Below are positions 31,478 through 46,399 of a DNA stretch of 64,000 bases, one piece after another (within the stretch, counting starts at the first letter, position 1; every line of letters starts with the position of its first letter). This stretch comes from Pseudoduganella lutea (GTDB lineage Bacteria; Pseudomonadota; Gammaproteobacteria; Burkholderiales; Burkholderiaceae_D), in NCBI RefSeq assembly GCF_004209755.1, contig NZ_CP035913.1:2976001-3040000 (forward strand), read 5' to 3'. A program made the translations under genes and the position numbers. A model generated the notes under the pieces. That model had not been told where the DNA came from and ran no database searches. It saw only the letters and a program-made list of their open reading frames with translations.

Positions 31478-32002
31478 CTATGCCAGCGGTGCTGACCGCA
31501 GCCCGATCCTCAGCATGCCGCTGCCATCCTCCCGATACCCGAGCCGTTCGAACATCCGCCGCGCCCGCGCATTCTCCGGCGCGACATCGGCCATCAAGCC
31601 GTTCAAGTGGAGCACCCCGGCGGCGTAGTCCGCCAGCACGCCGAGCGCTTCCGGCATGAACCCCTGCCCCCATGCTGAACGCCGCAGCAGGCATCCGACC
31701 TGCGCGGTGCGGGATGCCGGGTCGAAGCCGTGCAGCCCGCAAGTGCCGATCGGCGCGCCGCCATCGGCCGGCACGACCGCCCATTCCAGCGACTGGCCGG
31801 CGGCCAGCAGCCGCCGCACGCTGGCCAGCATCCGCCCCACCGTGGACAGGTCGGGAAAAGGGTCTTCGTCCGTGTAGCGCATGACGAGCGGATCGCCGTA
31901 GAGGGCGAACAGTGCCGCCGCATCGTCCTCGCCCATCGGCCGCAATGTCACGCGCCCGCCGTGCAGCACGGGCACTACCGTGGGAAGGGCCAACGCATCC
32001 AC
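31478..32002 (-). CDS. GNAT acetyltransferase, RimJ/RimL type
   Basis: A 174-residue GNAT domain. LRPMGEDDAAALFALYGDP opens the fold, the CoA-binding region is QVGCLLRRSAWGQGFMPEAL, and LNGLMADVAPENARARRMFERLGY closes it. It acetylates an amine or N-terminus; the substrate is unknown. The GTG at 32002 gives a start one base after the flavin oxidase stop, so the two genes are probably co-translated; a TTG at 31993 is an alternative. Because the operon also contains a spermidine-synthase-like gene, a polyamine substrate is possible but unproved. Confidence 0.8.
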   Translation of the reverse strand: MDALALPTVVPVLHGGRVTLRPMGEDDAAALFALYGDPLVMRYTDEDPFPDLSTVGRMLASVRRLLAAGQSLEWAVVPADGGAPIGTCGLHGFDPASRTAQVGCLLRRSAWGQGFMPEALGVLADYAAGVLHLNGLMADVAPENARARRMFERLGYREDGSGMLRIGLRSAPLA

Positions 32003-32003
32003 G

Positions 32004-33623
32004 TCAGGCCAGCGCTTTCTGCGCCGCCTGCCATCCCCACCACGACGCTTCCTCGAACACGGAAAAACCCGACAGGTCGGCGTGCGCGAACAGCACCGGC
32101 CCGGCAGCATCGCGCAGCGCCTGCACGCCGGGATTGGAGAGAAAACCCGGCAGCGGGGCCGCCATCGCATGGGCGCGCAGCGTGATGTCGGCGCGCTGCA
32201 CGCAGGCATCGAACGCGTTGCCGTAGGCGGCACGCAGGTCGACGGTGGCCAGCGCCAGCAACTCCTCGGGCGACGCGGACTGCATCCACGTGCGCGCCGC
32301 CACCGGATCGCGGTCGGACAGCGCCACGTAGCTGGTGAACACGCTTTGCGCCGGCGGCTGCTGGCGGATGTCCTGGTGCGTGGACACCACATAGCCCAGC
32401 CCCTGCGTGCCGTGCACCACGTTGTCCCACGACAGCGGCGCCTCGGGCAGCTCTTCCGGAAAGCGGTCCAGCAGGAAATTCGCCACGAGCCACGGCGAAT
32501 ATGCCGGCATGTGCCGCGCCGGATCGAAGCCGTACTGCGCGATGTCCTCGACCACGCGGCTGGTCACGAACAGTGGCATCGCGCAGATCACCTTGCGGGC
32601 GCGAACCAGATACGTGCGCGGCTTGCCATTCTCCAGCACGAAACACAGCGCTTCGGCACGCCCGTCGACCTGCTTCACGGTGGCGACCGTGCCGGCCATG
32701 CGCCGCGCGCCGGTCCGGGCGGCCAGCTTCTCGGCCAGCGGCTGCAGGCCGCCGGGCCATGTCAGCCACGCGCCCCCTTCCGCATTGGAGGCTTCGCCGC
32801 CGCGCGCGCAAAAATAATGCAGGCCGGCCCAGGCGGAAACGCGGTCGATGTCGGTGCCGTAATCGTCGCGGCAGCAGTAGTCGAGGTACCACAGCAAGGT
32901 GGGGGCCCGGTAGTTGTTCTGCGCCAGCCAGGTTTTGAAAGTGATCGTGTCGAGCCGCCGCCAGGCCGGGTCGGTGGAGGCCTGCGCGGCCGGCAGCGTG
33001 AACACCTTGCGGCGGTCGGCGCCGCGCATCGCATGCAGCTTTTCCATCTCGGCGGAGAAACGCGCATGCTCGGCCAGCTCCGCCGGCGGCACGCCGGCGC
33101 GCGGCATGACGCCTTCGTGCCACTTGCCCCCGTACAGCAGCCGTTCGTGGGGTGCGTGCAGGATCAGCTTTTCATCGTAGTACGGCTTGGGGCCGTAGGG
33201 ATCGCGCGTGATGATGCCCAGGTCGTACAGCAGGTGGCGCACGTGCAGGCATTCCTGCGGCGGGATCGGCAGGTAGTGCGCGCCGGTCGGATACGCCAGC
33301 GGGCCATACGCGCCGCCGGCGGCGTTGCCGAACGGTTCGGGGCCGTCGACCATCAGCACGTCCTTGACGCCTTCGCGGTGCAGCTTCCATGCCGCCGTCA
33401 GCCCGGCGATGCCGGAACCGAGGATGGCGACGTCGGCTTCGACGATGCTCGAAGGTGGGGGCAAGGCCTGGCGGTCGCGCAAATAATGGCCCTCGGCGCG
33501 GCCGGGGTGATGCAACCCGGGCTTGATTTCGTGCCAGCGCGCCCAGGCGGCGATGCCGGCGGCAGCGGCGCCGCCGCCGGCGCCCAGAGCGGCGGTCCAG
33601 CGCAGGAATGAGCGGCGTTCCAT
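32004..33623 (-). CDS. Tat-exported flavin amine oxidase-like protein
   Basis: A 539-residue protein with a twin-arginine signal (MERRSFLRWTAALGAGGGAA). The FAD Rossmann motif VAILGSGIAGLTAAWKLHREG begins near residue 63, and amine-oxidase-like elements follow, including GGAWLTWPGGLQPLAEKLA and the C-terminal GPVLFAHADLSGFSVFEEA FAD segment. It would oxidise an amine, or act as a related FAD oxidoreductase, in the periplasm. Its ATG has GAGGAC upstream. It sits 40 bp after the spermidine-synthase-like gene and directly before the GNAT gene, which makes a polyamine substrate worth testing. Confidence 0.82.
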   Translation of the reverse strand: MERRSFLRWTAALGAGGGAAAAGIAAWARWHEIKPGLHHPGRAEGHYLRDRQALPPPSSIVEADVAILGSGIAGLTAAWKLHREGVKDVLMVDGPEPFGNAAGGAYGPLAYPTGAHYLPIPPQECLHVRHLLYDLGIITRDPYGPKPYYDEKLILHAPHERLLYGGKWHEGVMPRAGVPPAELAEHARFSAEMEKLHAMRGADRRKVFTLPAAQASTDPAWRRLDTITFKTWLAQNNYRAPTLLWYLDYCCRDDYGTDIDRVSAWAGLHYFCARGGEASNAEGGAWLTWPGGLQPLAEKLAARTGARRMAGTVATVKQVDGRAEALCFVLENGKPRTYLVRARKVICAMPLFVTSRVVEDIAQYGFDPARHMPAYSPWLVANFLLDRFPEELPEAPLSWDNVVHGTQGLGYVVSTHQDIRQQPPAQSVFTSYVALSDRDPVAARTWMQSASPEELLALATVDLRAAYGNAFDACVQRADITLRAHAMAAPLPGFLSNPGVQALRDAAGPVLFAHADLSGFSVFEEASWWGWQAAQKALA

Positions 33624-33663
33624 CGTGTCCTCAGCGTATTCTCGGCATACTCTCAGCGTACCC

Positions 33664-35175
33664 TCAGCGTATGGTGTTGCGCCAGTCCTGTTCGAACTCG
33701 TGCACCAGCGATTGGGTGTTCAGGCGATTCGGCGCCATCTTCAGCGGCTTCATGTCGGGCGGAAAGGCGAACATGGCGGCCGTGGTGGCGCCGTTCAGGA
33801 AGCGCATCGGCAGGCGGTAGGCATCGGGCGGCGTGAAGGCGCCCTGTGGCGACGCGAGGATGAAGCCCCACTCGCCGAACGACGGCACGTAGGCGTGGTA
33901 AGGATACGTGCGCAGGCCCACTTCGCGCAGTGTCGCATCGATGGTCCAGTAGGCATGCGGCGCGAAGAACGGCGACGTCGATTGCACCACCACCAGGCCA
34001 TTGGCCGCCAGGTGGTGCTTGAGCATGCTGTAGAACGGCACCGAATACAGCTTGCCCAGTGCGAAGCTGGACGGATCGGGGAAGTCGACGATCACGGCAT
34101 CGAACATCTCATCGGTACCACGCAGCCACACGGCCGCATCGGCATTGATGACCTTGACGCGCGGGTCCGACAGCGCGCCGTGGTTCAGGGCCGCCAGTTC
34201 GGCGCGCGTCTTGAATGCGGCGGTCATGGCCGGATCCAGGTCGACCAGCGTGACGTGCTCGATATGCTTGTAGCGCAGCACCTCGCGCGCCGCCAGGCCA
34301 TCGCCGCCGCCCAGCACCAGTACCCGTTTTGCCCAGGGCAGCCGTTCCAGCGCGGGGTGCACGAGCGCCTCGTGGTACCGGTATTCGTCGCGCGACGAAA
34401 ACTGCAGGTTGCCGTTGATGTACAGGCGCGTGTCGTCCTTCCAGCGGGTGATCACGAGCCGCTGGTAGGGCGTGCTCGTGGCATACACGATCTCGTCGCC
34501 GAACAGCGCATGCTCGCCGAAGTGGGTAAGCCGGTCGGCGCTGGCAAAGCCGAACGACAGCGCGACCAGCACGGCGCAGGCGCGCAAGGTGCGGCCGGCC
34601 AGGTTCGTCAGTTCGGCGCGGAACACGTAGATCGTCCACAGCGCCACGCCGATGTTGAGCATGCCGAACAGGTAGCCGGTACGTACCAGGCCGAGATAGG
34701 GCGCCAGCACCAGCGGGAACAGCAGCGACACGGCCAGCGCCCCCAGGTAATCGAACGTGAGCACCCGGCTGACGATATCGGCGAACGCGGTCTCGCGCGC
34801 ATTGAGCGCGCGCATCACCAGCGGCACTTCCATGCCGACCATCGCGCCGATCATGAATACCAGCACGTAGAGCAGCAGCCGGAATGGTGCGGCCGCCCAC
34901 GAGAACGTGAGGAACAGCAGGGCGGCGGAGACACCGCCGATCAGGCCGATCGCCAGCTCGATGTCGACGAAGCGCGCCAGCACGTGCTCGTCCTTCACGT
35001 ATTTCGACAGGTGGGCGCCGACGCCCATGGCGAACAGGTAGCAGCCGATGATGGTGGAAAACTGCATCACCGAATCGCCCAGCAGGTAGCTGGACAGCGC
35101 GCCGGCGATCAGTTCATAGGCCAGGCCACACGAGGCAACGACGAACACGGACAGGATCAGAATCTTTTTGGTCAT
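33664..35175 (-). CDS. Membrane-embedded spermidine-synthase-like aminopropyltransferase
   Basis: A 503-residue protein in two parts. Residues 1 to about 215 hold some seven hydrophobic helices (ILILSVFVVASCGLAYELIA and others). The C-terminal half is a spermidine-synthase-type Rossmann domain: RLYINGNLQFSSRDEYRYHE, VLVLGGGDGLAAREVLRY, VTLVDLDPAMT and VIVDFPDPSSFALGKLYS. It should transfer aminopropyl from decarboxylated AdoMet to putrescine or another amine acceptor at the membrane. SpeD, which makes decarboxylated AdoMet, is encoded by the divergent arm. The N-terminal membrane part is what separates it from soluble SpeE. Confidence 0.9.
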   Translation of the reverse strand: MTKKILILSVFVVASCGLAYELIAGALSSYLLGDSVMQFSTIIGCYLFAMGVGAHLSKYVKDEHVLARFVDIELAIGLIGGVSAALLFLTFSWAAAPFRLLLYVLVFMIGAMVGMEVPLVMRALNARETAFADIVSRVLTFDYLGALAVSLLFPLVLAPYLGLVRTGYLFGMLNIGVALWTIYVFRAELTNLAGRTLRACAVLVALSFGFASADRLTHFGEHALFGDEIVYATSTPYQRLVITRWKDDTRLYINGNLQFSSRDEYRYHEALVHPALERLPWAKRVLVLGGGDGLAAREVLRYKHIEHVTLVDLDPAMTAAFKTRAELAALNHGALSDPRVKVINADAAVWLRGTDEMFDAVIVDFPDPSSFALGKLYSVPFYSMLKHHLAANGLVVVQSTSPFFAPHAYWTIDATLREVGLRTYPYHAYVPSFGEWGFILASPQGAFTPPDAYRLPMRFLNGATTAAMFAFPPDMKPLKMAPNRLNTQSLVHEFEQDWRNTIR

Positions 35176-35230
35176 TGGTCCGCGGCTGGATTATCATGTT
35201 TCTCTGTCTACAAGTCCGGTACTATAAGCC

Positions 35231-35617
35231 ATGTTCGCAGTTGCCAACTACCTGATCCACCTGTGCATCGCGGCCGCGCTGCTCGCGGTCTTCTTCAAGG
35301 CCTATACCTGGATGACGCCTTACGACGAAGTCCACCTGATCCGGGAGGGCAACCACGCGGCGGCATTGTCGCTGGGCGGTGCGCTGCTCGGCTTTTCCCT
35401 GACGATCGCCTCGGGCCTGCTGCACACCCGCAATTACGAGGAATTCTTTGCCTGGGCATTCGGTGCAATGATCGTGCAGGCGCTGGCCTATGCGGTGACC
35501 ACGCGCGCCTTGAAGATGGCCCGGGACCAGATCGAATCCGGCAACAGCGCGTTCGGCGCGCTGCTCGGCACCATTTCCCTTTCCATCGGCGGCATCAATG
35601 CCGCCTGCATTTCCTGA
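35231..35617 (+). CDS. DUF350 membrane protein
   Basis: A 128-residue integral membrane protein with four predicted helices (starting YLIHLCIAAALLAVFF) and the DUF350 segments LIREGNHAAALSLGGALLG and SGNSAFGALLGTISLSIGGIN. The family (YjfL in enterobacteria) has no known function; YjfL there is encoded beside the ATP-grasp protein YjfC, a glutathionylspermidine-synthetase relative. The ATG has no ribosome site, and a -10-like TACTAT ends six bases before it, so the message may be leaderless. Ten bases separate its stop from the SPFH gene. Confidence 0.88.
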   Translation: MFAVANYLIHLCIAAALLAVFFKAYTWMTPYDEVHLIREGNHAAALSLGGALLGFSLTIASGLLHTRNYEEFFAWAFGAMIVQALAYAVTTRALKMARDQIESGNSAFGALLGTISLSIGGINAACIS

Positions 35618-35627
35618 AGGAGCCATG

Positions 35628-36689
35628 ATGGGTATCGGCAGCTTTATCAAGAAGCAGTTCATCGACGTCCTGCAGTGGAACGAAGACCAGGAGGGCGTGC
35701 TGGCCTGGCGCTACCCGATGCAGGATTTCGAGATCCAGAACGGCGGCGTGCTGGTGGTGCGCGAATCGCAGGTGGCGGTATTCGTCAACGAGGGCCAGAT
35801 CGCCGACGTGTTCGGCCCCGGCACGCACAAGCTCACCACGCAGACACTGCCCGTGCTCACCAACCTGAAGAACTGGGACAAGCTGTTCGACGCGCCGTTC
35901 AAGTCGGACGTGTATTTCTTCAGCACGCGCGTGCAGACGGGCCGCAAATGGGGCACCACGCAGCCGGTGACGATCCGCGACAAGGATTTCGACATGATCC
36001 GCGTGCGCGCCTTCGGCATGTATTCGTATCGCGTGACGGATGCCCGCAAGTTCTTCACCGAGATCAGCGGTACCCGCGAAGCGTACACGCGCGACGAAGT
36101 GGAAGACCAGTTGCGCGGCATCCTGCTGGCCACCATGGCCAGCTCGATCGGCGGCTCGAACGTGGCCTTCCTCGACATGGCGGCCAACCAGGCGCTGATG
36201 GCGCAGGAGATCAAGGGTGACCTTGCCGACGCGTTCGCGCGCTACGGCATCGGCCTCGATGAATTCAATGTCGCTTCCGTGAGCCTGCCCGAGGAATTGC
36301 AGAAAGCGCTGGACGACCGTATCTCGGCCGGCATGAAGGGCGGCCTCTCCGCCGACAAGATGGCCGGCTTCACGCGCTACCAGACCGCCACCGCGATCCC
36401 GCTGGCGGCACAGAACGAAGGCGGCATCGCCGGCATCGGCGCCGGGCTGGGCGCCGGCGTGACGATCGGCCAGGCCATGGGCCAGGCAGTGGGTGCTTCG
36501 CTGGCGCCGGCCTCTCCGCAAGCGGCCGCGACGCCACTGCCGCCCGCAGCGGCCGCACCGGCAGCGCCCGCCGAGGATTCGATCGAGACGCGCCTGCAAA
36601 AGCTCAAGGGCTTGCTGGACAAGGGCCTGATTTCCGCCGCCGACTACGACAGCACGAAGGCCGAGCTGCTGAAGAAACTGATCGGCTAA
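35628..36689 (+). CDS. SPFH/Band 7 (YdjI-type) protein with C-terminal SHOCT domain
   Basis: A 353-residue protein without a membrane helix. The SPFH domain (about 25-240) begins WRYPMQDFEIQNGGVLVV and includes SQVAVFVNEGQIADVFGPGTH and AFARYGIGLDEFNVASVSLP. A Gly/Ala/Pro-rich linker follows (about 270-315), then a SHOCT helix pair SIETRLQKLKGLLDKGLI. This resembles the YdjI/virion-core-like SPFH group, thought to form membrane-associated scaffolds and linked to PspA-type stress systems in Bacillus. I chose the second ATG (35628) because AAGGAG lies five bases before it; 35625 is in the same frame. Confidence 0.9.
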   Translation: MGIGSFIKKQFIDVLQWNEDQEGVLAWRYPMQDFEIQNGGVLVVRESQVAVFVNEGQIADVFGPGTHKLTTQTLPVLTNLKNWDKLFDAPFKSDVYFFSTRVQTGRKWGTTQPVTIRDKDFDMIRVRAFGMYSYRVTDARKFFTEISGTREAYTRDEVEDQLRGILLATMASSIGGSNVAFLDMAANQALMAQEIKGDLADAFARYGIGLDEFNVASVSLPEELQKALDDRISAGMKGGLSADKMAGFTRYQTATAIPLAAQNEGGIAGIGAGLGAGVTIGQAMGQAVGASLAPASPQAAATPLPPAAAAPAAPAEDSIETRLQKLKGLLDKGLISAADYDSTKAELLKKLIG

Positions 36690-36692
36690 GCG

Positions 36693-38159
36693 TTGCTGAC
36701 CCTCTCTTGCCCCAGCTGCGGCGCCGAGGTGCGCTTCCGCTCGCATGCGGCCGTGATGGCCGTGTGCGAGTACTGCCGCACCGGCGTGCTGAAGGACCCC
36801 GGCAGCGTGGGCGACCTGGGCAAGATCGCCGAAGTGCTGGAAGACTATTCGCCGATCCAGCTCGGCACGTCCGGCACGTGGTCCAGCCGCCCGTTCACCG
36901 TGGTGGGCCGGCTGCAGCTGCGCTATGACGACGGCTTCTGGAACGAGTGGTACCTGCTGTTCGACGATGGCGCGACCGGCTGGCTGGGCGAGGCATCCGG
37001 CCAGTTCACGATGACCGCCGCCCGGGAGGCCGGCGGCCCCCTGCCCGCATTCACCGACCTGCGACCGGGCGAGCACGTGACGCTGGCGACCCAGCGCTGG
37101 ACGGTGGCCGATGTGCGCACGGCCCGCTGCACCGGCGGCCAGGGCGAACTGCCGTTCCGCGTGGGCGAAGGCTGGCAGGCGAAGGTGGCCGACCTGCGCG
37201 CCGGCAGCGCCTTCATGACGCTCGACTATTCCGATGGCGAACAGCCGGTGGTCTACGCCGGCGGGGCCGTCAAGCTGGACAACCTGCACCCGCAACTGCT
37301 GCGCGACGACATCGACATCCGGCGCACCGCCGGCCGCTTCCGCGGCAAGGTCGCGGCGCTCGATTGCCCGGCGTGCGGCAGCGGCATCCAGTACTTGCCG
37401 GGCATGACGGCGAACCTCGTGTGCCCGGCATGCAGCGCGCAGCTCGACGCGGCCAGCCCGAAGGTCGCGGTGCTGCGCGCCGGCGAACGGCTCGATGCCG
37501 TGCCCGTCACGCTGCCGCTGGGCACCGAGGGCACGCTGGGCAACCAGAAGCTCACCGTGATCGGCGTGATGCGCCGCGAGGATGACGAAGGCACCGCGTG
37601 GACCGAATACCTGCTGTACGGCGGCCGCGCCGGCTTCACGTGGCTGGTGGAGACGGACGAGGGCTGGCAACGCTCGGAAGTGCTCGACAGCTGGCCGGAC
37701 TGGCGCGACGGCTCGGCCGTGCTGAAGAAGACGACCTACCGGCGGCTGTACCAGTACCCGGCGCGGGTGACGTTCGCCGCCGGCGCCTTCAACTGGCGCG
37801 TGGCGGTGGGCGACGTGGCCCAGGTCGAGGAACTGCGCAGCGGACAATCGATGCTGGCGGTCGAACGCACGGAGAACGAGATCACCTGGTCGCGTTCCTC
37901 CCCTGTGGCATTCGACCAGTTGCACATGTGGTTCCCCACGGTCTTCAAGGGCAAGCCGAAGCAGCCACTGCGCCCGCCGGGCAAGCTGACGAGCGGCACC
38001 CGGTACCGCGACGCGGCCCGCATGCTGATCATCATCACGGGCGTGGTCAACGCGATCCCGCTGATCGCCAATTTCGGCGGCACGTTCGCCTACCCGGTGC
38101 TGGGTGCGCTGGCGCTGTACCTGCCGGCCGTTTTCCTCGACGATAACGATAAGGCATGA
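36693..38159 (+). CDS. DUF4178 protein with two zinc ribbons and C-terminal membrane segment
   Basis: A 488-residue protein. Two CxxC...CxxC zinc ribbons are visible: CPSCGAEVRF...CEYC at the N-terminus and CPACGSGIQY...CPAC near residue 225. Each is next to a beta-rich DUF4178 unit (PFTVVGRLQLRYDDGFWNEW, KLTVIGVMRREDDEGTAWTEY), so the protein is an internal duplication. A hydrophobic C-terminus (MLIIITGVVNAIPLIANFGG and on) gives one or two helices. It begins with TTG three bases after the SPFH stop and ends in ATGA overlapping the next gene. Function is unknown; it is a frequent SPFH and SpeD neighbour. Confidence 0.85.
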   Translation: MLTLSCPSCGAEVRFRSHAAVMAVCEYCRTGVLKDPGSVGDLGKIAEVLEDYSPIQLGTSGTWSSRPFTVVGRLQLRYDDGFWNEWYLLFDDGATGWLGEASGQFTMTAAREAGGPLPAFTDLRPGEHVTLATQRWTVADVRTARCTGGQGELPFRVGEGWQAKVADLRAGSAFMTLDYSDGEQPVVYAGGAVKLDNLHPQLLRDDIDIRRTAGRFRGKVAALDCPACGSGIQYLPGMTANLVCPACSAQLDAASPKVAVLRAGERLDAVPVTLPLGTEGTLGNQKLTVIGVMRREDDEGTAWTEYLLYGGRAGFTWLVETDEGWQRSEVLDSWPDWRDGSAVLKKTTYRRLYQYPARVTFAAGAFNWRVAVGDVAQVEELRSGQSMLAVERTENEITWSRSSPVAFDQLHMWFPTVFKGKPKQPLRPPGKLTSGTRYRDAARMLIIITGVVNAIPLIANFGGTFAYPVLGALALYLPAVFLDDNDKA

Positions 38160-38326
38160 AAAAGTTCTGGATCTACGGGATCGCGGTGGTTTTCGTTTCG
38201 ACCGTGCTTAGCTGGAGCAATATGGGCCAGAGCAGCGGCGGCAGCAGTGGCTATCGCAGCGGCGGCTCGTCATGGTCGTCGAGTACGGGCAGCGGCAGCT
38301 GGGGTGGTGGCGGAGGCCACAAGTGA
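38156..38326 (+). CDS. 56-residue membrane peptide with Ser/Gly-rich tail
   Basis: A short gene, ATG at 38156 and stop at 38324-38326. The N-terminus MKKFWIYGIAVVFVSTVLSW is one hydrophobic helix or a signal; the remaining 36 residues are almost only Ser, Gly, Trp and Tyr, ending GGGGGHK. It overlaps DUF4178 by four bases (ATGA) and the speD start by four bases (GTGA), so it is very likely a real, co-translated member of the operon. No family is recognised. Such tails suggest a surface or membrane-tethered low-complexity peptide. Confidence 0.75.
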   Translation: MKKFWIYGIAVVFVSTVLSWSNMGQSSGGSSGYRSGGSSWSSSTGSGSWGGGGGHK

Positions 38327-38709
38327 GCGCCGGGGCAAGCCACTACAAGGCCGAGGGAACCCATCTGCTGGCGGACTTGTCCGGCGTGGCGCCCGCCCTG
38401 CTCACGAGCTGCGCGCGCATCGAGGCATTGCTGCGCGCCGCGGCGGAAGCGGCCGGCGCGCACATCCTGCACAGCCATTTCCACGGCTTCGGGCCCGGCC
38501 TCGGCGTGACCGGCGTGGTGCTGCTGGCCGAATCCCATATCTCGATCCACACGTGGCCGGAACAGGCATTCGCGGCCGTCGACATCTTCATGTGCGGCGC
38601 CGCCGCGCCGCAGCGCGCACTGGAAGTACTGCGCACCGCGCTGGCCCCGGCGCACTGCCGCGTGCGCACCGCGCAGCGCAGCCCCGTTGACGAAACAGTC
38701 AGCGGATGA
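38323..38709 (+). CDS. speD: S-adenosylmethionine decarboxylase proenzyme
   Basis: A 128-residue class 1b (Bacillus/Thermotoga-type) AdoMet decarboxylase. The self-cleavage site is Glu-Ser in LLAESHISIHTWPEQ, where the Ser becomes the pyruvoyl group. Conserved HFHGFGPGLGVTGVVLL and DIFMCG (proton-donor Cys) are present. It makes decarboxylated AdoMet, the aminopropyl donor for spermidine synthesis. The GTG start overlaps the stop of the 56-residue gene. It is the last gene of the DUF350-SPFH-DUF4178 operon and complements the divergent spermidine-synthase-like gene. Confidence 0.92.
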   Translation: MSAGASHYKAEGTHLLADLSGVAPALLTSCARIEALLRAAAEAAGAHILHSHFHGFGPGLGVTGVVLLAESHISIHTWPEQAFAAVDIFMCGAAAPQRALEVLRTALAPAHCRVRTAQRSPVDETVSG

Positions 38710-41263: not shown

Positions 41264-44200
41264 TCAGTTCGCGAACCCTGTGCCGAATGCCGCATTCAGC
41301 TCGGCCGCCGTGGCGGCCGCACCGTGCGCGACACCGACGATCGTGACCTGCGCCAGGTAATTCTGTTCGACGGCATCGACGAAGCCCGCCGCGCTGCTCG
41401 ACTGGTAGCTTGCCGCCAGTTGCTGCACCAGCGCCTGCACCGACGCGTTATCCTGGTTTGCCACCAGGTACCCTTCCGCGTCGAAATCAAACGCCTTGCT
41501 TGTCGTTGCCGAAAACGCCGCGCCGCGGTCGGTATAGCCCTGGGCCGCCAGGCCGAGGCTTGCCGCATCGGCCGCCGTGACCAGCTGCGTGGCGCCGCGT
41601 GCATCCTGGAACAGGTGGAAATCCGTTCCCGTGCCGCTTCCCGCTGCCGCCGCCGTGAAGCCGCCGGCGCCGTCCACGGCGCCGTAGCACGCGTAAGGCA
41701 AAGCCTGGCCGGCAGCCGCGAACGTCCAGTCCCGTGTAAATGGCTGGTAATACGCCGTCATCTTCTGCCCGCCCGGCTGTGCGTCGAACGCCACGCCTTC
41801 GAACGTGTTGCCGGCCACGGCCGCCTGCTGTGCCGCCTCCGCGGCACTGGCCGTGTAATACCGGTCGCCGGTCGCCAGCAGGATGCTGTAGACCTGGTGG
41901 TCCGGCGTATCGAATGCCAGCATGCCCGGGTCGACGATCGTGCCATTGACGAGCCCATCTTCGTCGCCCCAGCCACCATCCGTCAAGGTGAGCACGATAC
42001 GATCGACGCGGCCATCCGCATTCAGGTCGACCAGCGTGGCGCCGTTGTCCATCGTGTCCAGCCGCCCGTCGTCGAGAAAGCTGTAATAGCTTTGCGTGGC
42101 GCCGTCGAACTTCAGGAAATCGGTTGCCAGCGAACCGCCGGCCGCCAGGTCGATGACGACCCGCGTCTGCAAGCCGTCGCGGCCGGTATCGAGGTCCGGC
42201 AGGCTGGCCACGCCATCTTCCGCCGTGACCGTGAAATTGAACACGGGCGACGTGGCACGGAATTGCTCCGGCAGCGCCGCGGGCAGGTCGGTCAGGCTCA
42301 GGTCCTTCAACTGGGCGCCATTGGTCAGCTGCACGGCTTCGCCGGCATTCGTCACCGAACCGGCGAGTACGGCACCGAACGATGCCGCCGAGGCGCTCTT
42401 GCCCAGCGCGAAGTCGGCCAGCGAGCGCATCGGCATTTGCGCCACCGCGTGCTGCTGCCAGTCGAGCACGCCATCGTGGTTGAAGTCGCCGCCGTTGGCG
42501 GCCAGTTCGATCGATGGCGCCACGCCGTCCACGTCCGTGACGATCGTGACGGCAACGGGGGCCTGCGCCACCACGTTCCCGGCGGCATCGAGGATCTGGG
42601 CATTGAACGTGTAGACGCCATCGTCGAGCAAGCCTGCGTTCACATTGACCTTGCCGGCCGCGATATCCTCGGCCGTGATGGCATTGCTGCCCACCACTTC
42701 GCCGGCCGCGCTCAGCAGCCGGACGCTGCCACCGGTGGCCAGCAGCGCACCGCCGCTGATCGTGAAGTCGGGCGTGACAACGCTGGTCACCGTATCGCTC
42801 TGGCTCGAGCCATCGTCCGATGCCGGGTCGAGGCCGGTCTGGAGGCCGGGCGTCGTCGGCGTTTCGGGTGTCGTTGGCGTTTCGGGTGTCGTTGGCGTCT
42901 CGGGCGTCGTCGGCGTCTCGGGCGTCGTCGGCGTTTCGGGCGTCGTCGGTGTCTCAGGGGTCGTCGGCGTCGTCGGCGTCACGGGTGGGGTGACCACGAC
43001 GTCGTTGTCCACGATGGTGCCGGTGGCGGATACGCCGCCCACCGTCAGCACCGCGCTTTCGGCATTTTCCACCACCGCATCGTCGATCGTCGGCAGCGTG
43101 ACGGTGAAGGCCGCCACGCCGGCAGGGACGACAACGATGCCGCTTGTTGCGCTGCCATTTTTCCAGGCCACGCCGTCGCTGAACGACAGGGTACCCAGAT
43201 CTTGCGGAGCGGCCGTGCCGGCCAGGGCCAGGGTGAATTCGACCGGCCCCGCGCCGGCCGTGTTCAGCGCCACCGCGTAGGCCAGTGCCGCCCCTTCCGT
43301 GACGTTGGTCGCGCCGCTGGACGGTTGCGCCGCATCGAAGGCGGTTACGGTCGCGATGGCCGGCGCGTCGTTGTCCGTCACGGTGCCGGCAGCCACGATG
43401 CCGCCCAGCGTGATCACGACGGTTTCCGCGGATTCGACGAGGGTATCGTCGATCGTCGCGACATCGATCGTGAAGCTGGTGACTGCCGCCGGCACCACGA
43501 CGATGCCCGTGGCCGGGTCGCCGTTCTTCCACGTGACGCCATCGGAGAACGTGACCGCGCCCCGGTCCGCCGTGGCAGCACTGCCGGTGAACGCGAGGGT
43601 GTATTCGCCATCGGTCACGCCGGCCGCGCTGACGGTGGCGGTGTAGCGCAGCGTCTGCCCTTCGACCACGGCGTTGTCGACCGGATTCGCGCCCACGTTC
43701 GCGGCATCCTCGGCCACGACGGCCGTGATGCTGCGGCTGTCGTTGTCCACGATGGTGCCGGTGGCGGACACGCCGCCCACCGTCAGCACCGCGCTTTCGG
43801 CGTTTTCCACCACCGCATCGTCGATCGTCGGCAGCGTGACCGTGAAGGCCGCCACGCCGGCGGGAACGACGACGATGCCGCTGCCCGCAACGCCGTTCTT
43901 CCATGCCACGCCATCGCTGAACGACAGGGTACCCACGTCCTGCGCGGCGGCCGTGCCGGCCAGGGCCAGGGTGAATTCGACCGGCCCCGCGCCGGCCGTG
44001 TTCAGCGCCACCGCATACGCCAGCGCCGCCCCTTCGGTGACGCTGGTCGCGCCGCTGGACGGTTGCACCGGATCGACCGCGGTCACGGTCGCAATAGCCG
44101 GCGCGTCGTTGTCGGTCACGGTGCCGGCAGCCACGATGCCGCCCAGCGTGATCACGACGGTTTCCGCGGATTCGACGAGGGTATCGTCGATCGTCGCGAC

Positions 44201-46399
44201 ATCGATCGTGAAGCTGGTGACGGCCGCCGGCACCACGACGATGCCTGTGGCCGGGTCGCCGTTCTTCCATGTGACGCCATGGGAGAACGTGACCGCGCCC
44301 CGGTCCGCCGTGGCGGCGCTGCCGGTGAACGCGAGGGTGTATTCGCCATCGGTCACGCCGGCCGCGCTGACGGTGGCGGTATAGCGCAGCGTATGCCCTT
44401 CGACCACGGCGTTGTCGACCGGGTTCGCGCCCACGTTCGCGGCATCCTCGGCCACGACGGCCGTGATGCTGCGGCTGTCGTTGTCGACGATGGTGCCGGT
44501 GGCGGACACGCCGCCCACCGTCAACACGGCGCTTTCGGCGTTTTCCACCACCGCATCGTCGACAGTGGGCAGCGTGACCGTGAAGGCCGCCACGCCGGCG
44601 GGGACGACGACGATGCCGCTTGCCGCGCTGCCGTTTTTCCACGCCACGCCATCGCTGAACGACAGGGTACCCAGGTCTTGCGGGGCCGCCGTGCCGGCCA
44701 CGCCGAGCGTGTACTCGACGGCTGACGGGCTGGCGCCGTTCAGCGCCACCGTGTACACCAGCGTGGCACCTTCGGTCACGGCGTTGTCGACCGGGGTGGC
44801 GCCCGTATGCGCGGCGTCTTCGGCGATGACACTTGCGACAGCCTGGCTGTCGTTGTCCGTGATCGTGCCGGTGGCGGACACGCTGCCCACCGTCAGCACG
44901 GCCGTTTCCGCCGCTTCGATGACGGCGTCGTCGACCGTGGCGACCATCACACCGAACGTCGTGACGCCGGCCGGCACGACGACGATACCGCTGCCGGCAT
45001 TGCCGTTCTTCCAGGCCACGCCGGCGGTGAACGCCAGGGACGCCACATCACCCGCGCCGGCCGTGCCGGACAGCGCCAATGCGTATTCGGTCGCGACCGG
45101 GCTGGCGCCGCTCAGCGTCACCGTGTACAGCAGCGATGCGCCTTCAGCAACGCTATCGTCCACCGGCAACATGCCCGTGTGCGCGGCATCTTCGGCCGTA
45201 ACGGCCGACACGGCCTGGCTGTCGTTGTCCGTGATCGTGCCGGTGGCAGCCACGCCACCCACCGTCAGCACGGCCGTTTCCGCCGCTTCGATTGCGGTGT
45301 CGTCGGTCGTCGGCAGCGTGACCTTGAAGCTGCCCACGCCATTCGGCACGACGACGATGCCCGTCGCCGGGTTGCCGTTCTTCCAGGTCACGCCGTCGCT
45401 GAACGACAGTGCGCCCAGGTCGCCCGCCGCAGCGGTGCCGCCGCGGACCAGCGCATGCTCGCCGCCGGTACCGCTGAGGATCACCGTATAGACGAGCGTG
45501 CCGCCTTCGCCAACGGTGCTGTCGACAGGCATCGCACCCAGGTGCGCGCCATCTTCGGCCACCACGCTGGCCACCGTGGCAGGGGCAGGCACGTTGGCGT
45601 CGTTGTCGGTGATCGTCAGCACGCCCGTGTTGTCCGTGATCGCCGCGAATGAACTGTCGCTGAGCAGGATGGAGACCGTGCGCGCGCCATCGACTGCGGT
45701 GGTATTCGTGACCGGTACCGTGACCGTCTTTGTCGTCTGGCCCGGTGCGAAGGTCAGCGTGCCGGTGACCGCCCCATAGTCGGTACCGGCAGTGGCGGTA
45801 CCATCGACGGACGTGTAGCGCACCGTCACCGTATCGGTGCTTGCACGGCTGAGCGAAACGGTGACGGTGGCCGTGCCGGCCCCCTCATCGACAGTCGTGT
45901 CGCCGACGGTCAGCTTGGGCTGGTTTGCCAGGTAGGCGTTCAATGTGCCGAGCAGGCCCTGGGTTGCCGCGTTGCCGCTGACCGAGCCGTTCGGGATCGC
46001 CAGTGCCTGGCCATTGAAGGTCAGGCCGATAAAGCTGCGCGGATCGCCATTGGCCTCCGTCCAGGGGTCGATGAAGTACGTGCCGCCGCCAGCCGTGGCC
46101 AGCGTGTGGCCGCTGCCCGTGGCATAGAACACCATCGTGCTGACGGTACCGCTGGGCGCGCGCCAGTTGATGACGCCATCGATGCGGTGCTGTACGCCCA
46201 GCGCATCCGTGACCAGGATCGTGCCCGTCAGGTCATTGCCCTGGGCGCCGCCGAACTGTCCATTGTCCGTCGCCTGTTCGAATTGCAGCTTCGACCAGCC
46301 GAGCGTCGATGCGAGAAAAGCGTTTCCGGCTTCGTTGTTCCGGACGGCGTCGCCGGCGAAACCGTTGGCGAACGAAACGGATACGGTGGTGATGGGCAT
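41264..46399 (-). CDS. 1711-residue Calx-beta repeat protein with choice-of-anchor U domain
   Basis: A giant, probably surface or secreted protein. Residues 1-165 form a unique N-terminal domain without a signal peptide. One classical Calx-beta domain (about 165-275) precedes seven tandem units of about 110-125 residues, each with VTWKNGNPATGIVVVP-like strands and an AETAVLTVGG...TGTITDND end. A TPETPT linker follows (about 1140-1180), then an Ig-like region and a choice-of-anchor U region with DLNADGRVDRI and DGGWGDEDGLVNGTIVDPG, and a C-terminal stretch. Calx-beta units bind Ca2+ and form rods, so adhesion or biofilm is a fair guess. Lack of a signal peptide suggests type I secretion, but no exporter gene is nearby. 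Confidence 0.85.
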   Translation of the reverse strand: MPITTVSVSFANGFAGDAVRNNEAGNAFLASTLGWSKLQFEQATDNGQFGGAQGNDLTGTILVTDALGVQHRIDGVINWRAPSGTVSTMVFYATGSGHTLATAGGGTYFIDPWTEANGDPRSFIGLTFNGQALAIPNGSVSGNAATQGLLGTLNAYLANQPKLTVGDTTVDEGAGTATVTVSLSRASTDTVTVRYTSVDGTATAGTDYGAVTGTLTFAPGQTTKTVTVPVTNTTAVDGARTVSILLSDSSFAAITDNTGVLTITDNDANVPAPATVASVVAEDGAHLGAMPVDSTVGEGGTLVYTVILSGTGGEHALVRGGTAAAGDLGALSFSDGVTWKNGNPATGIVVVPNGVGSFKVTLPTTDDTAIEAAETAVLTVGGVAATGTITDNDSQAVSAVTAEDAAHTGMLPVDDSVAEGASLLYTVTLSGASPVATEYALALSGTAGAGDVASLAFTAGVAWKNGNAGSGIVVVPAGVTTFGVMVATVDDAVIEAAETAVLTVGSVSATGTITDNDSQAVASVIAEDAAHTGATPVDNAVTEGATLVYTVALNGASPSAVEYTLGVAGTAAPQDLGTLSFSDGVAWKNGSAASGIVVVPAGVAAFTVTLPTVDDAVVENAESAVLTVGGVSATGTIVDNDSRSITAVVAEDAANVGANPVDNAVVEGHTLRYTATVSAAGVTDGEYTLAFTGSAATADRGAVTFSHGVTWKNGDPATGIVVVPAAVTSFTIDVATIDDTLVESAETVVITLGGIVAAGTVTDNDAPAIATVTAVDPVQPSSGATSVTEGAALAYAVALNTAGAGPVEFTLALAGTAAAQDVGTLSFSDGVAWKNGVAGSGIVVVPAGVAAFTVTLPTIDDAVVENAESAVLTVGGVSATGTIVDNDSRSITAVVAEDAANVGANPVDNAVVEGQTLRYTATVSAAGVTDGEYTLAFTGSAATADRGAVTFSDGVTWKNGDPATGIVVVPAAVTSFTIDVATIDDTLVESAETVVITLGGIVAAGTVTDNDAPAIATVTAFDAAQPSSGATNVTEGAALAYAVALNTAGAGPVEFTLALAGTAAPQDLGTLSFSDGVAWKNGSATSGIVVVPAGVAAFTVTLPTIDDAVVENAESAVLTVGGVSATGTIVDNDVVVTPPVTPTTPTTPETPTTPETPTTPETPTTPETPTTPETPTTPETPTTPGLQTGLDPASDDGSSQSDTVTSVVTPDFTISGGALLATGGSVRLLSAAGEVVGSNAITAEDIAAGKVNVNAGLLDDGVYTFNAQILDAAGNVVAQAPVAVTIVTDVDGVAPSIELAANGGDFNHDGVLDWQQHAVAQMPMRSLADFALGKSASAASFGAVLAGSVTNAGEAVQLTNGAQLKDLSLTDLPAALPEQFRATSPVFNFTVTAEDGVASLPDLDTGRDGLQTRVVIDLAAGGSLATDFLKFDGATQSYYSFLDDGRLDTMDNGATLVDLNADGRVDRIVLTLTDGGWGDEDGLVNGTIVDPGMLAFDTPDHQVYSILLATGDRYYTASAAEAAQQAAVAGNTFEGVAFDAQPGGQKMTAYYQPFTRDWTFAAAGQALPYACYGAVDGAGGFTAAAAGSGTGTDFHLFQDARGATQLVTAADAASLGLAAQGYTDRGAAFSATTSKAFDFDAEGYLVANQDNASVQALVQQLAASYQSSSAAGFVDAVEQNYLAQVTIVGVAHGAAATAAELNAAFGTGFAN
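42850..42981 (-). repeat. 18-bp tandem repeat coding for TPETPT
   Basis: About six copies of an 18-bp unit (GGCGTCGTCGGCGTTTCG-like on the plus strand) encode a TPETPT linker in the Calx-beta protein. Copies differ by silent changes. The number of units could vary by slippage. Confidence 0.85.
43001..44476 (-). repeat. Two nearly identical 738-bp tandem units in the Calx-beta gene
   Basis: The sequence GTCGTTGTCCACGATGGTGC occurs at 43001 and 43739 and, with one change, at 44477: an exact 738-bp period (246 residues, two Calx-beta-like units each). The two copies are almost identical in DNA, including silent sites, so they stem from a recent duplication or gene conversion; other units in the gene are more divergent. 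Confidence 0.85.

Follow-up and report, generated by a model that had tools for sequence, protein, structure and literature searches.

What do the membrane fusions of spermidine synthase act on, and why does SpeD accompany DUF350, PspA or SPFH proteins? These questions are raised by a locus in a stretch of 64,000 nucleotides from Pseudoduganella lutea (contig NZ_CP035913.1, positions 2,976,001 to 3,040,000; hereafter, the window), whose host genome is a single contig of 7.5 Mb. Two divergent arms lie here 55 bp apart: the minus arm encodes an FAD oxidase and a spermidine-synthase-like protein with seven transmembrane (TM) segments, and the plus arm encodes DUF350, SPFH and DUF4178 proteins, a Ser/Gly protein of 56 amino acids (aa) and SpeD, a predicted S-adenosylmethionine (AdoMet) decarboxylase (AdoMetDC). 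A preliminary description of the locus had the arms, their spacing and their genes in the right places, and the families that it named are matched (Table 1). It passed over the 56-aa peptide, which is the most telling part of the module, given its invariant C-terminal lysine. Judging from sequence, we suggest that the membrane enzyme may aminopropylate the C-terminal Lys of this tethered tail, a serious possibility if still short of a probable one.

A conserved gene module

The two arms are one conserved module. Loci of the window type were taken as the best 80 of 545 DUF4178-related loci from named genomes, mostly Betaproteobacteria; by DUF4178 protein the nearest named relatives belong to Pseudoduganella, Duganella and Massilia. 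Seven of the 80 lay too near contig ends and were dropped, leaving 73 complete loci with enough flank on both sides. Counts are from a single-pass search, iterated profiles having drifted into shadow open reading frames (ORFs), and ORF starts upstream of the true starts may inflate lengths. Beside DUF4178, the oxidase, the synthase, DUF350 and SPFH each occur in 72 of the 73 complete loci, SpeD in 69, and all five together in 69. The order and orientation seen in the window are retained in 66 of those 69, and the three deviations (L077, L090, L115) look like picks of overlapping or over-long ORFs. A GNAT acetyltransferase gene follows the oxidase gene at 1 bp, an operon-like tightness, and had been counted as part of the minus arm; it is present in one of the 73 complete loci, and we rule it out as a member of the module.

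The association also holds at the level of genomes. A first sample of 199 Pseudomonadota genomes, for which p-values ignore kinship, contains 18 genomes with DUF4178, 24 with a fused (membrane) synthase above cut-off, 54 with class-1 SpeD and 65 with DUF350. The fused synthase is found in 18 of 18 DUF4178 genomes versus 6 of 181 others (Fisher 8e-21, uncorrected for kinship) and lies within 12 kb of DUF4178 on the same contig in all 18, which, with the 69 of 73 loci above, bears out the earlier expectation that SpeD and the membrane enzyme accompany DUF350 and DUF4178 far more often than by chance. A DUF350 match is present in all 24 fused-synthase genomes, within 12 kb in 22, and class-1 SpeD in 20 of these 24 versus 34 of the 175 genomes without a fused synthase. 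Two fused-synthase genomes without class-1 SpeD (G138 and G169) carry a class-2, eukaryote-like AdoMetDC away from the module. Where the fused synthase is missing, genomes show no association between SpeD and DUF350 (11/34 vs 30/141, p 0.13).

A C-terminal lysine on tethered Ser/Gly tails

Where the window has its 56-aa peptide, every one of the 80 window-type loci has a short Ser/Gly-rich ORF (48–77 aa, starts unrefined), built of a short N-terminal hydrophobic segment and then a Ser/Gly-rich tail. These peptides were chosen as the most Ser/Gly-rich ORF of 30–130 aa near the DUF4178 stop, and the end residue was not used in the choice. All 81 (80 loci plus the window; 77 distinct sequences) end in His-Lys, with Arg never replacing the final Lys. 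The codons vary synonymously, CAC or CAT for His and AAG or AAA for Lys, followed by TGA in 65 peptides, TAA in 11 and TAG in 5, while the residues stay, so both residues are held at the protein level. The overlap with SpeD does not account for the terminal Lys, because the usual 4-base overlap is in frame in 63 of the 81 peptides and not in the other 18, and because the codons vary. Nor is DUF4178 itself the protein that supplies the Lys end in window-type loci: only 17 of its 120 best homologues end in Lys, and their ends are diverse, so the Lys is a property of the tail.

Other forms of the protein appear when all fused synthases are considered. All 24 fused-synthase genomes of the first sample encode a membrane-tethered, Ser/Gly-tailed, Lys-ending protein, as a separate peptide, a lipoprotein or a DUF4178 fusion; in two of them its gene sits next to DUF350 on a different contig. 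The tail is fused to the C-terminus of DUF4178 in six loci (L012, L014–L017, L021), small proteins of L018 and L019 end in THK, and other loci have lipoproteins or small TM proteins ending GGK, RGK, GSGK or GRIK. Across these groups, the final Lys is the constant feature of the tail ends.

Several points speak against giving the lysine so much weight. The residues that precede it vary by group (H, G, I/V), and only 26 of the 81 window-type peptides resemble the window peptide in sequence at E 1e-5. Moreover, the pattern in the first sample emerged from a deliberate look for it, and in several loci the simple tail filter returns shadow ORFs as well; there, the gene was picked by place and tether. 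For the former reason, we fetched a second sample of 22 further fused-synthase loci (from a draw of 396 genomes, 45 with a fused synthase, 21 of them new), and a Lys-ending tethered tail protein is present in 22 of 22. For the latter, we searched again with a filter that took no account of the last residue and asked only for a tethered protein with a Ser/Gly tail directly beside core genes: 21 of 24 first-sample and 18 of 20 second-sample candidates end in Lys, compared with 24 of 332 ORFs that have a full-length homologue in another locus, a set in which such tails are included. The blind filter yields no Lys-ending candidate in nine loci (the window, L008, L031, L154, L156–L158, L027 and L030); the Lys-ending proteins of the first seven come from other filters, and the genomes of L027 and L030 have theirs on L009 and L010. 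On plasmids, where six of 13 matches were fetched and the truncated synthase of one match (H13) was dropped, a Lys-ending protein is found in five of five loci with a complete synthase. These include Gemmatirosa, from another phylum, with a 485-aa ORF ending FRHGK, and Novosphingobium, with GPTHK.

A plasmid of Alteromonas mediterranea (L165, 7944–14602) groups SpeD, DUF4178, DUF350, a Lys-ending protein of ~510–536 aa and a toxic anion resistance protein.

The membrane aminopropyltransferase and its possible acceptor

Averaged over 51 membrane synthases, hydropathy gives seven hydrophobic segments, and the nearest solved relatives of the window synthase by sequence are soluble aminopropyltransferases. 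When 24 membrane enzymes are aligned with E. coli SpeE, the D-x-x-D Asp pair (364 and 367; E. coli SpeE 158 and 161) is retained in all 24, as is the GGG/GAG-DG stretch. The P-T-Y-Y-G-G loop of E. coli SpeE, by comparison, reads P-S-F-G-[EDNQ]-W-G in 24 of 24 and is two residues shorter. The loop position holds Tyr in E. coli SpeE and in all 16 aligned soluble SpeE-like proteins, and Phe in every membrane enzyme; four of the 20 soluble loci were not extracted by the motif filter, of which L054 and L055 show P-x-Y and L053 and L056 are unassigned. The Tyr of the SpeE P-x-Y substrate loop is, we take it, the residue that touches putrescine. The chemistry of aminopropyl transfer thus looks intact in the membrane enzymes and the acceptor pocket different.

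These observations bear on a simpler explanation, that the enzyme is an ordinary spermidine synthase placed in the membrane, with SpeD and the fused enzyme making spermidine from putrescine and the membrane proteins using or sensing it. The NCBI family name is polyamine aminopropyltransferase, and no other protein of the host genome matches Spermine_synth strongly (129.8 bits for the window enzyme; three others score 27–35 bits). The genome also has matches to the OKR- and Orn/Arg-type decarboxylase families, which make putrescine plausible. We nevertheless consider this explanation unlikely, though far from negligible: the window synthase scores 130.1 bits against a cut-off of 249.55 for the speE equivalog TIGR00417, the Tyr-to-Phe change and the shorter loop are universal in the alignment, the fusion reportedly fails to complement a spermidine synthase mutant (work of Li and colleagues in 2019), and the terminal Lys is left without a reason. 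Two facts weigh against a protein acceptor, the second of them also on the side of this simpler explanation. The same Phe occurs in the aligned Thermus aminopropyltransferase, so Phe points to a different acceptor and not to a protein, and spermidine is listed for Massilia antarctica at 0.3 umol/g beside 4.8 of putrescine in the available text of PMC9028926.

Residues 278–426 of the synthase, in its AdoMet-binding domain, also match the PADLOC model mad2 (71.6 bits), and phage defence had been named among the possible purposes of the locus. An anti-phage cassette is nonetheless extremely improbable, since the eight proteins scanned gave no PADLOC match beyond mad2 and a 16-bit match of the oxidase, and since the module occurs in one form across many related genomes.

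Two further sets of synthase-like proteins were seen. The host genome encodes three small ones (L003, L004 and L005) that are PRK04457-like (198–205 bits against a cut-off of 304), and a Rhodovulum plasmid (L166, 7950–8654) encodes one that matches only residues 295–503 of the window enzyme and is without the membrane domain.

Sidedness of the proposed reaction

In all 51 membrane synthases, Lys/Arg is more abundant in loops 2+4+6 than in loops 1+3+5; the even loops are longer, but the difference persists per residue, the means over the 51 giving ~0.16 versus ~0.06. This pattern would place the N-terminus of the synthase inside and the synthase domain outside. Additionally, Cys is absent from the catalytic domain in 46 of the 51, compared with none of 21 soluble SpeE-like proteins. 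Taken together, loop charges and Cys depletion hint at a periplasmic catalytic domain. As for the tails, the N-terminus is net positive in 75 of the 81 window-type peptides, and a lipobox pattern is present in 11 of 16 lipoprotein-like tails (5 unmatched); tails of the lipoprotein type would be periplasmic. The oxidase begins with MERRSFLRW, which is Tat-signal-like, and a loose RRx-hydrophobic pattern occurs within the first 120 aa of 67 of 73 oxidases.

Other features count against a periplasmic reaction. In only 21 of the 51 synthases do Lys/Arg outnumber Asp/Glu in the segment before the first TM segment. Absence of Cys also characterizes the SPFH proteins (73/73), which are expected to be cytosolic, and the oxidase, for all its Tat-like motif, contains Cys in 73 of 73. 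A periplasmic catalytic domain would, moreover, require decarboxylated AdoMet (dcAdoMet) to cross the membrane, and we know of no precedent for periplasmic dcAdoMet.

Partner proteins

The SpeD protein of the window has an ESHISIHTWPE processing motif that aligns with that of solved SpeD. A strict pattern for this motif matched 52 of 70 proteins, and the 18 exceptions show ESH and HTWPE by eye. The window SpeD is the only AdoMet_dc match in the host genome, which has no class-2 AdoMetDC match. Positions diagnostic for AdoMet versus ornithine or arginine as substrates of the SpeD family are given in a figure of PMC10407285, as described in the accessible part of that paper; the window SpeD has the HTWPE proline, which may map to one of them.

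The oxidase, near-constant in the complete DUF4178 loci, is found in only 9 of the 24 fused-synthase genomes of the first sample. The DUF350 proteins occur in forms of ~72, 128 or 300 aa in otherwise similar modules (L006–L031).

The proteins near the synthase that might act as scaffold alternate among the 24 genomes: Band_7_1 is present in eight (in one, ~13 kb off), PspA in nine, both in none and neither in seven. The host genome has no PspA_IM30 match and hence lacks the PspA by which a phage shock (PSP) system is recognized. A scaffolding role for SPFH is plausible. SPFH, DUF350 and the synthase are all membrane-type proteins, SPFH and PspA are generally known to act at membranes, and Ravi et al. 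(2024) suggest, in the available text, that membranes are altered either through the polyamine level or through the aminopropylation of other substrates (PMC11237479). The enzyme might thus aminopropylate a lipid or an envelope polymer, with the tail Lys serving as a charged anchor or docking motif for anionic lipids or for SPFH/PspA. This too we judge improbable, though not to be dismissed lightly: docking needs no invariant last residue, and neither the 0 of 81 peptides with Arg nor the constancy of the final Lys across groups would be called for.

Proposed mechanism

If the tail lysine is the acceptor, the parts of the module could work together as follows. SpeD would make dcAdoMet, and the membrane-anchored aminopropyltransferase would use it on the C-terminal Lys of a Ser/Gly-tailed tethered protein, here the 56-aa peptide. 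The Lys side chain is in effect an aminobutyl amine, to which one aminopropyl group would add, leaving the protein with a spermidine-like terminus. The tail that accepts the group would lie on the periplasmic face, as probably would the catalytic domain, the donor being passed across the membrane by the TM part of the enzyme or by DUF350. SPFH (PspA in other lineages) would organise the inner face of the membrane, and DUF4178 would hold or sense the tail; removal or oxidation of the modified amine may fall to the exported FAD oxidase.

Parts of the distribution do not favor this scheme. SpeD lies within 12 kb of the fused synthase in only 12 of 20 genomes, and two of the 24 fused-synthase genomes (G037 and G057, both draft assemblies) have no AdoMetDC of class 1 or 2. 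A locus of Uliginosibacterium aquaticum (L121, 10001–11700) has DUF4178 and a His-Lys peptide, yet its 21 kb contain no match at E 1e-5 to the synthase, SpeD, SPFH, DUF350 or the oxidase.

What lysine aminopropylation offers is a concrete candidate acceptor, one residue at the end of a protein in every fused-synthase system checked here, together with a predicted mark on the tail Lys of +57.06 Da per aminopropyl group. If true, it would be a new protein modification and would give dcAdoMet a role outside free polyamines.

A possible Gly-Gly parallel in E. coli

A comparable arrangement exists in E. coli. The yjfIJKLMC cluster encodes a PspA relative, DUF350 (YjfL), a DUF1190 protein (YjfM) and YjfC, a peptide-spermidine ligase according to RefSeq, and ygiB-ygiC repeats the pair of DUF1190 protein and ligase. 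The order yjfL-yjfM-yjfC upholds the preliminary description in associating DUF350 (YjfL) with a relative of glutathionylspermidine synthetase. YjfM (L137, 2388–3026) and YgiB (L167, 1245–1916) have Ser/Gly-rich ends that close in Gly-Gly. The best 120 of 1192 DUF1190 matches end in Gly-Gly in 116 cases, in GS in two and otherwise in two; that these are the best-scoring matches, mostly enterobacterial where named, counts against leaning heavily on the parallel.

A Gly end would be a fitting target for a ligase joining spermidine to a carboxylate, and a Lys end for an aminopropyltransferase; by analogy, both might yield a tethered spermidine-like group. The Gly-Gly tails of YgiB and YjfM may therefore be candidate natural substrates of the YgiC and YjfC ligases, and if the proposal for the Lys tails is true, the two kinds of system would have a chemical logic in common, with the Gly-Gly tail perhaps the natural peptide substrate of the E. 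coli enzymes. In its broadest form, the idea would be of a hitherto undescribed post-translational modification, a periplasm-facing aminopropylation of the C-terminal Lys of tethered Ser/Gly-tailed proteins that gives protein-bound spermidine. This end would be reached by two chemically unrelated routes (aminopropyltransferase with Lys ends, ATP-grasp peptide-spermidine ligase with Gly-Gly ends), both serving membrane-stress complexes of DUF350 and PspA or SPFH. We hold this wider form to be possible but doubtful.

The Gly-Gly ends beside peptide-spermidine ligases could also be taken to mean that the reactive end in the window is the C-terminal carboxylate, used by an unlinked ligase or protease much as spermidine ligases may use Gly-Gly. 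This is very unlikely. The ten window proteins scanned by Pfam, with no search made beyond them, include no ATP-grasp ligase; the linked enzyme is an alkylator of amines, and a carboxylate would not demand Lys.

Features of the locus

Table 1. Features of the module and its flank, with positions in the window.
Feature	Position	Strand	Basis or remark
GNAT acetyltransferase	31478-32002	-	Acetyltransf_3 match
FAD amine-oxidase-like protein, 539 aa	32004..33623	-	Amino_oxidase PF01593, 35.8 bits, above cut-off
Membrane aminopropyltransferase (predicted), 503 aa, seven hydrophobic segments and a spermidine-synthase domain	33664..35175	-	Spermine_synth/NF002956 (PRK03612), 683.2 bits vs cut-off 472
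Intergenic region between the divergent arms, 55 bp	35176..35230	.	Sequence
DUF350 membrane protein, 128 aa	35231..35617	+	PF03994, 107.5 bits
SPFH/Band_7_1 protein with C-terminal SHOCT-like end	35625..36689	+	PF13421, 250.8 bits; start ATG 35625 or 35628
DUF4178 protein, TTG start	36693..38159	+	PF13785 in two stretches; C-terminal hydrophobic region
Membrane-tethered Ser/Gly tail protein, 56 aa, His-Lys end; proposed acceptor	38156..38326	+	Place, composition, conserved end
Terminal His and Lys codons, CAC AAG	38318..38323	+	Last base doubles as first base of the SpeD GTG
SpeD, class 1b S-adenosylmethionine decarboxylase (by sequence), 128 aa	38323..38709	+	AdoMet_dc; TIGR03330, 126.6 bits vs cut-off 75.65; start GTG 38323

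The gaps of the plus arm agree with those described before. DUF350 and SPFH are 10 bp apart if SPFH starts at ATG 35628 (7 bp if at ATG 35625), SPFH and DUF4178 are 3 bp apart, and the DUF4178–peptide and peptide–SpeD junctions are overlaps of 4 bases each (-4), the latter with the GTG start. The SHOCT match of the SPFH protein, at 25.9 bits, is slightly below its 27-bit cut-off. The DUF4178 protein has two Zn-ribbon-like sets of CxxC pairs, whose Cys columns are invariant or nearly so in the alignment. The scanned region between the arms contains one weak promoter-like match, no more than in shuffles. Elsewhere in the window, the minus strand carries a 1711-aa ORF (41264–46399) that contains long repeats as well as a TTPETP run and resembles a large repetitive surface protein.

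Comparison with known systems

The nearest precedent for a polyamine-derived group on a specific protein lysine is the hypusination of eIF5A, which involves an aminobutyl group, different enzymes and the cytosol; the likeness to the modification proposed here is one of analogy only. Pederick and colleagues (2023) are said to have described YgiC and YjfC of E. coli as peptide-spermidine ligases that go with YgiB and YjfM. The E. coli yjf and ygi systems share with the window type a DUF350 protein and a PspA relative (in the yjf operon), a Ser/Gly-tailed protein (there DUF1190) and polyamine chemistry on a peptide; they differ in pairing an ATP-grasp amide ligase with Gly-Gly ends, where the window type pairs an aminopropyltransferase with Lys ends. 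Li and colleagues (2019) reportedly found a polyamine-independent AdoMetDC, an MFS-like/SpdSyn fusion and a linkage to DUF350, and are said to have envisaged that SpeD and the fusion enzyme act together outside polyamine synthesis; they reportedly also posed the questions with which we began. SpeD, the fusion of a membrane domain with SpdSyn, DUF350 and the question of an acceptor other than putrescine are thus common to that system and ours, and what we propose in addition is a candidate acceptor and a periplasmic catalytic domain.

The module itself and the general idea that links polyamines, DUF350, DUF4178 and membranes are already published: the main text of Ravi et al. (2024), as available, describes them (PMC11237479), citing Li 2019 for AdoMetDC linkages. 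The word lysine is absent from that main text, and the open-access literature searched, some results of which were listed only in part, yielded no mention of the tail Lys or its protein contexts, of a match to Gly-Gly ends or of the sidedness argument. The second group of systems in the accessible text of Ravi et al. is a CesT/Tir-PspA operon with a 7TM-spermidine synthase, DUF350, a lipoprotein and DUF4178 (example AAN56744–AAN56747). It shares with the window the 7TM-synthase fusion, DUF350, DUF4178 and a tethered extra protein; the window, by contrast, has SPFH in place of CesT/Tir-PspA and a single-TM peptide in place of the lipoprotein, and adds SpeD and the FAD oxidase. The CesT/Tir-PspA dyad is absent from the window as judged on PspA alone, with no search made for CesT/Tir. 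A variant of the third group, again in the text available, combines Band-7-SHOCT, whose band-7 protein has two C-terminal TM segments, with an AdoMet decarboxylase and a polyamine oxidase (PMC11237479). With this variant, the window has in common Band-7 with SHOCT, AdoMetDC, an amine oxidase and DUF350. The third group as described there is, however, built round an ATP-grasp ligase, and the window has a membrane aminopropyltransferase instead.

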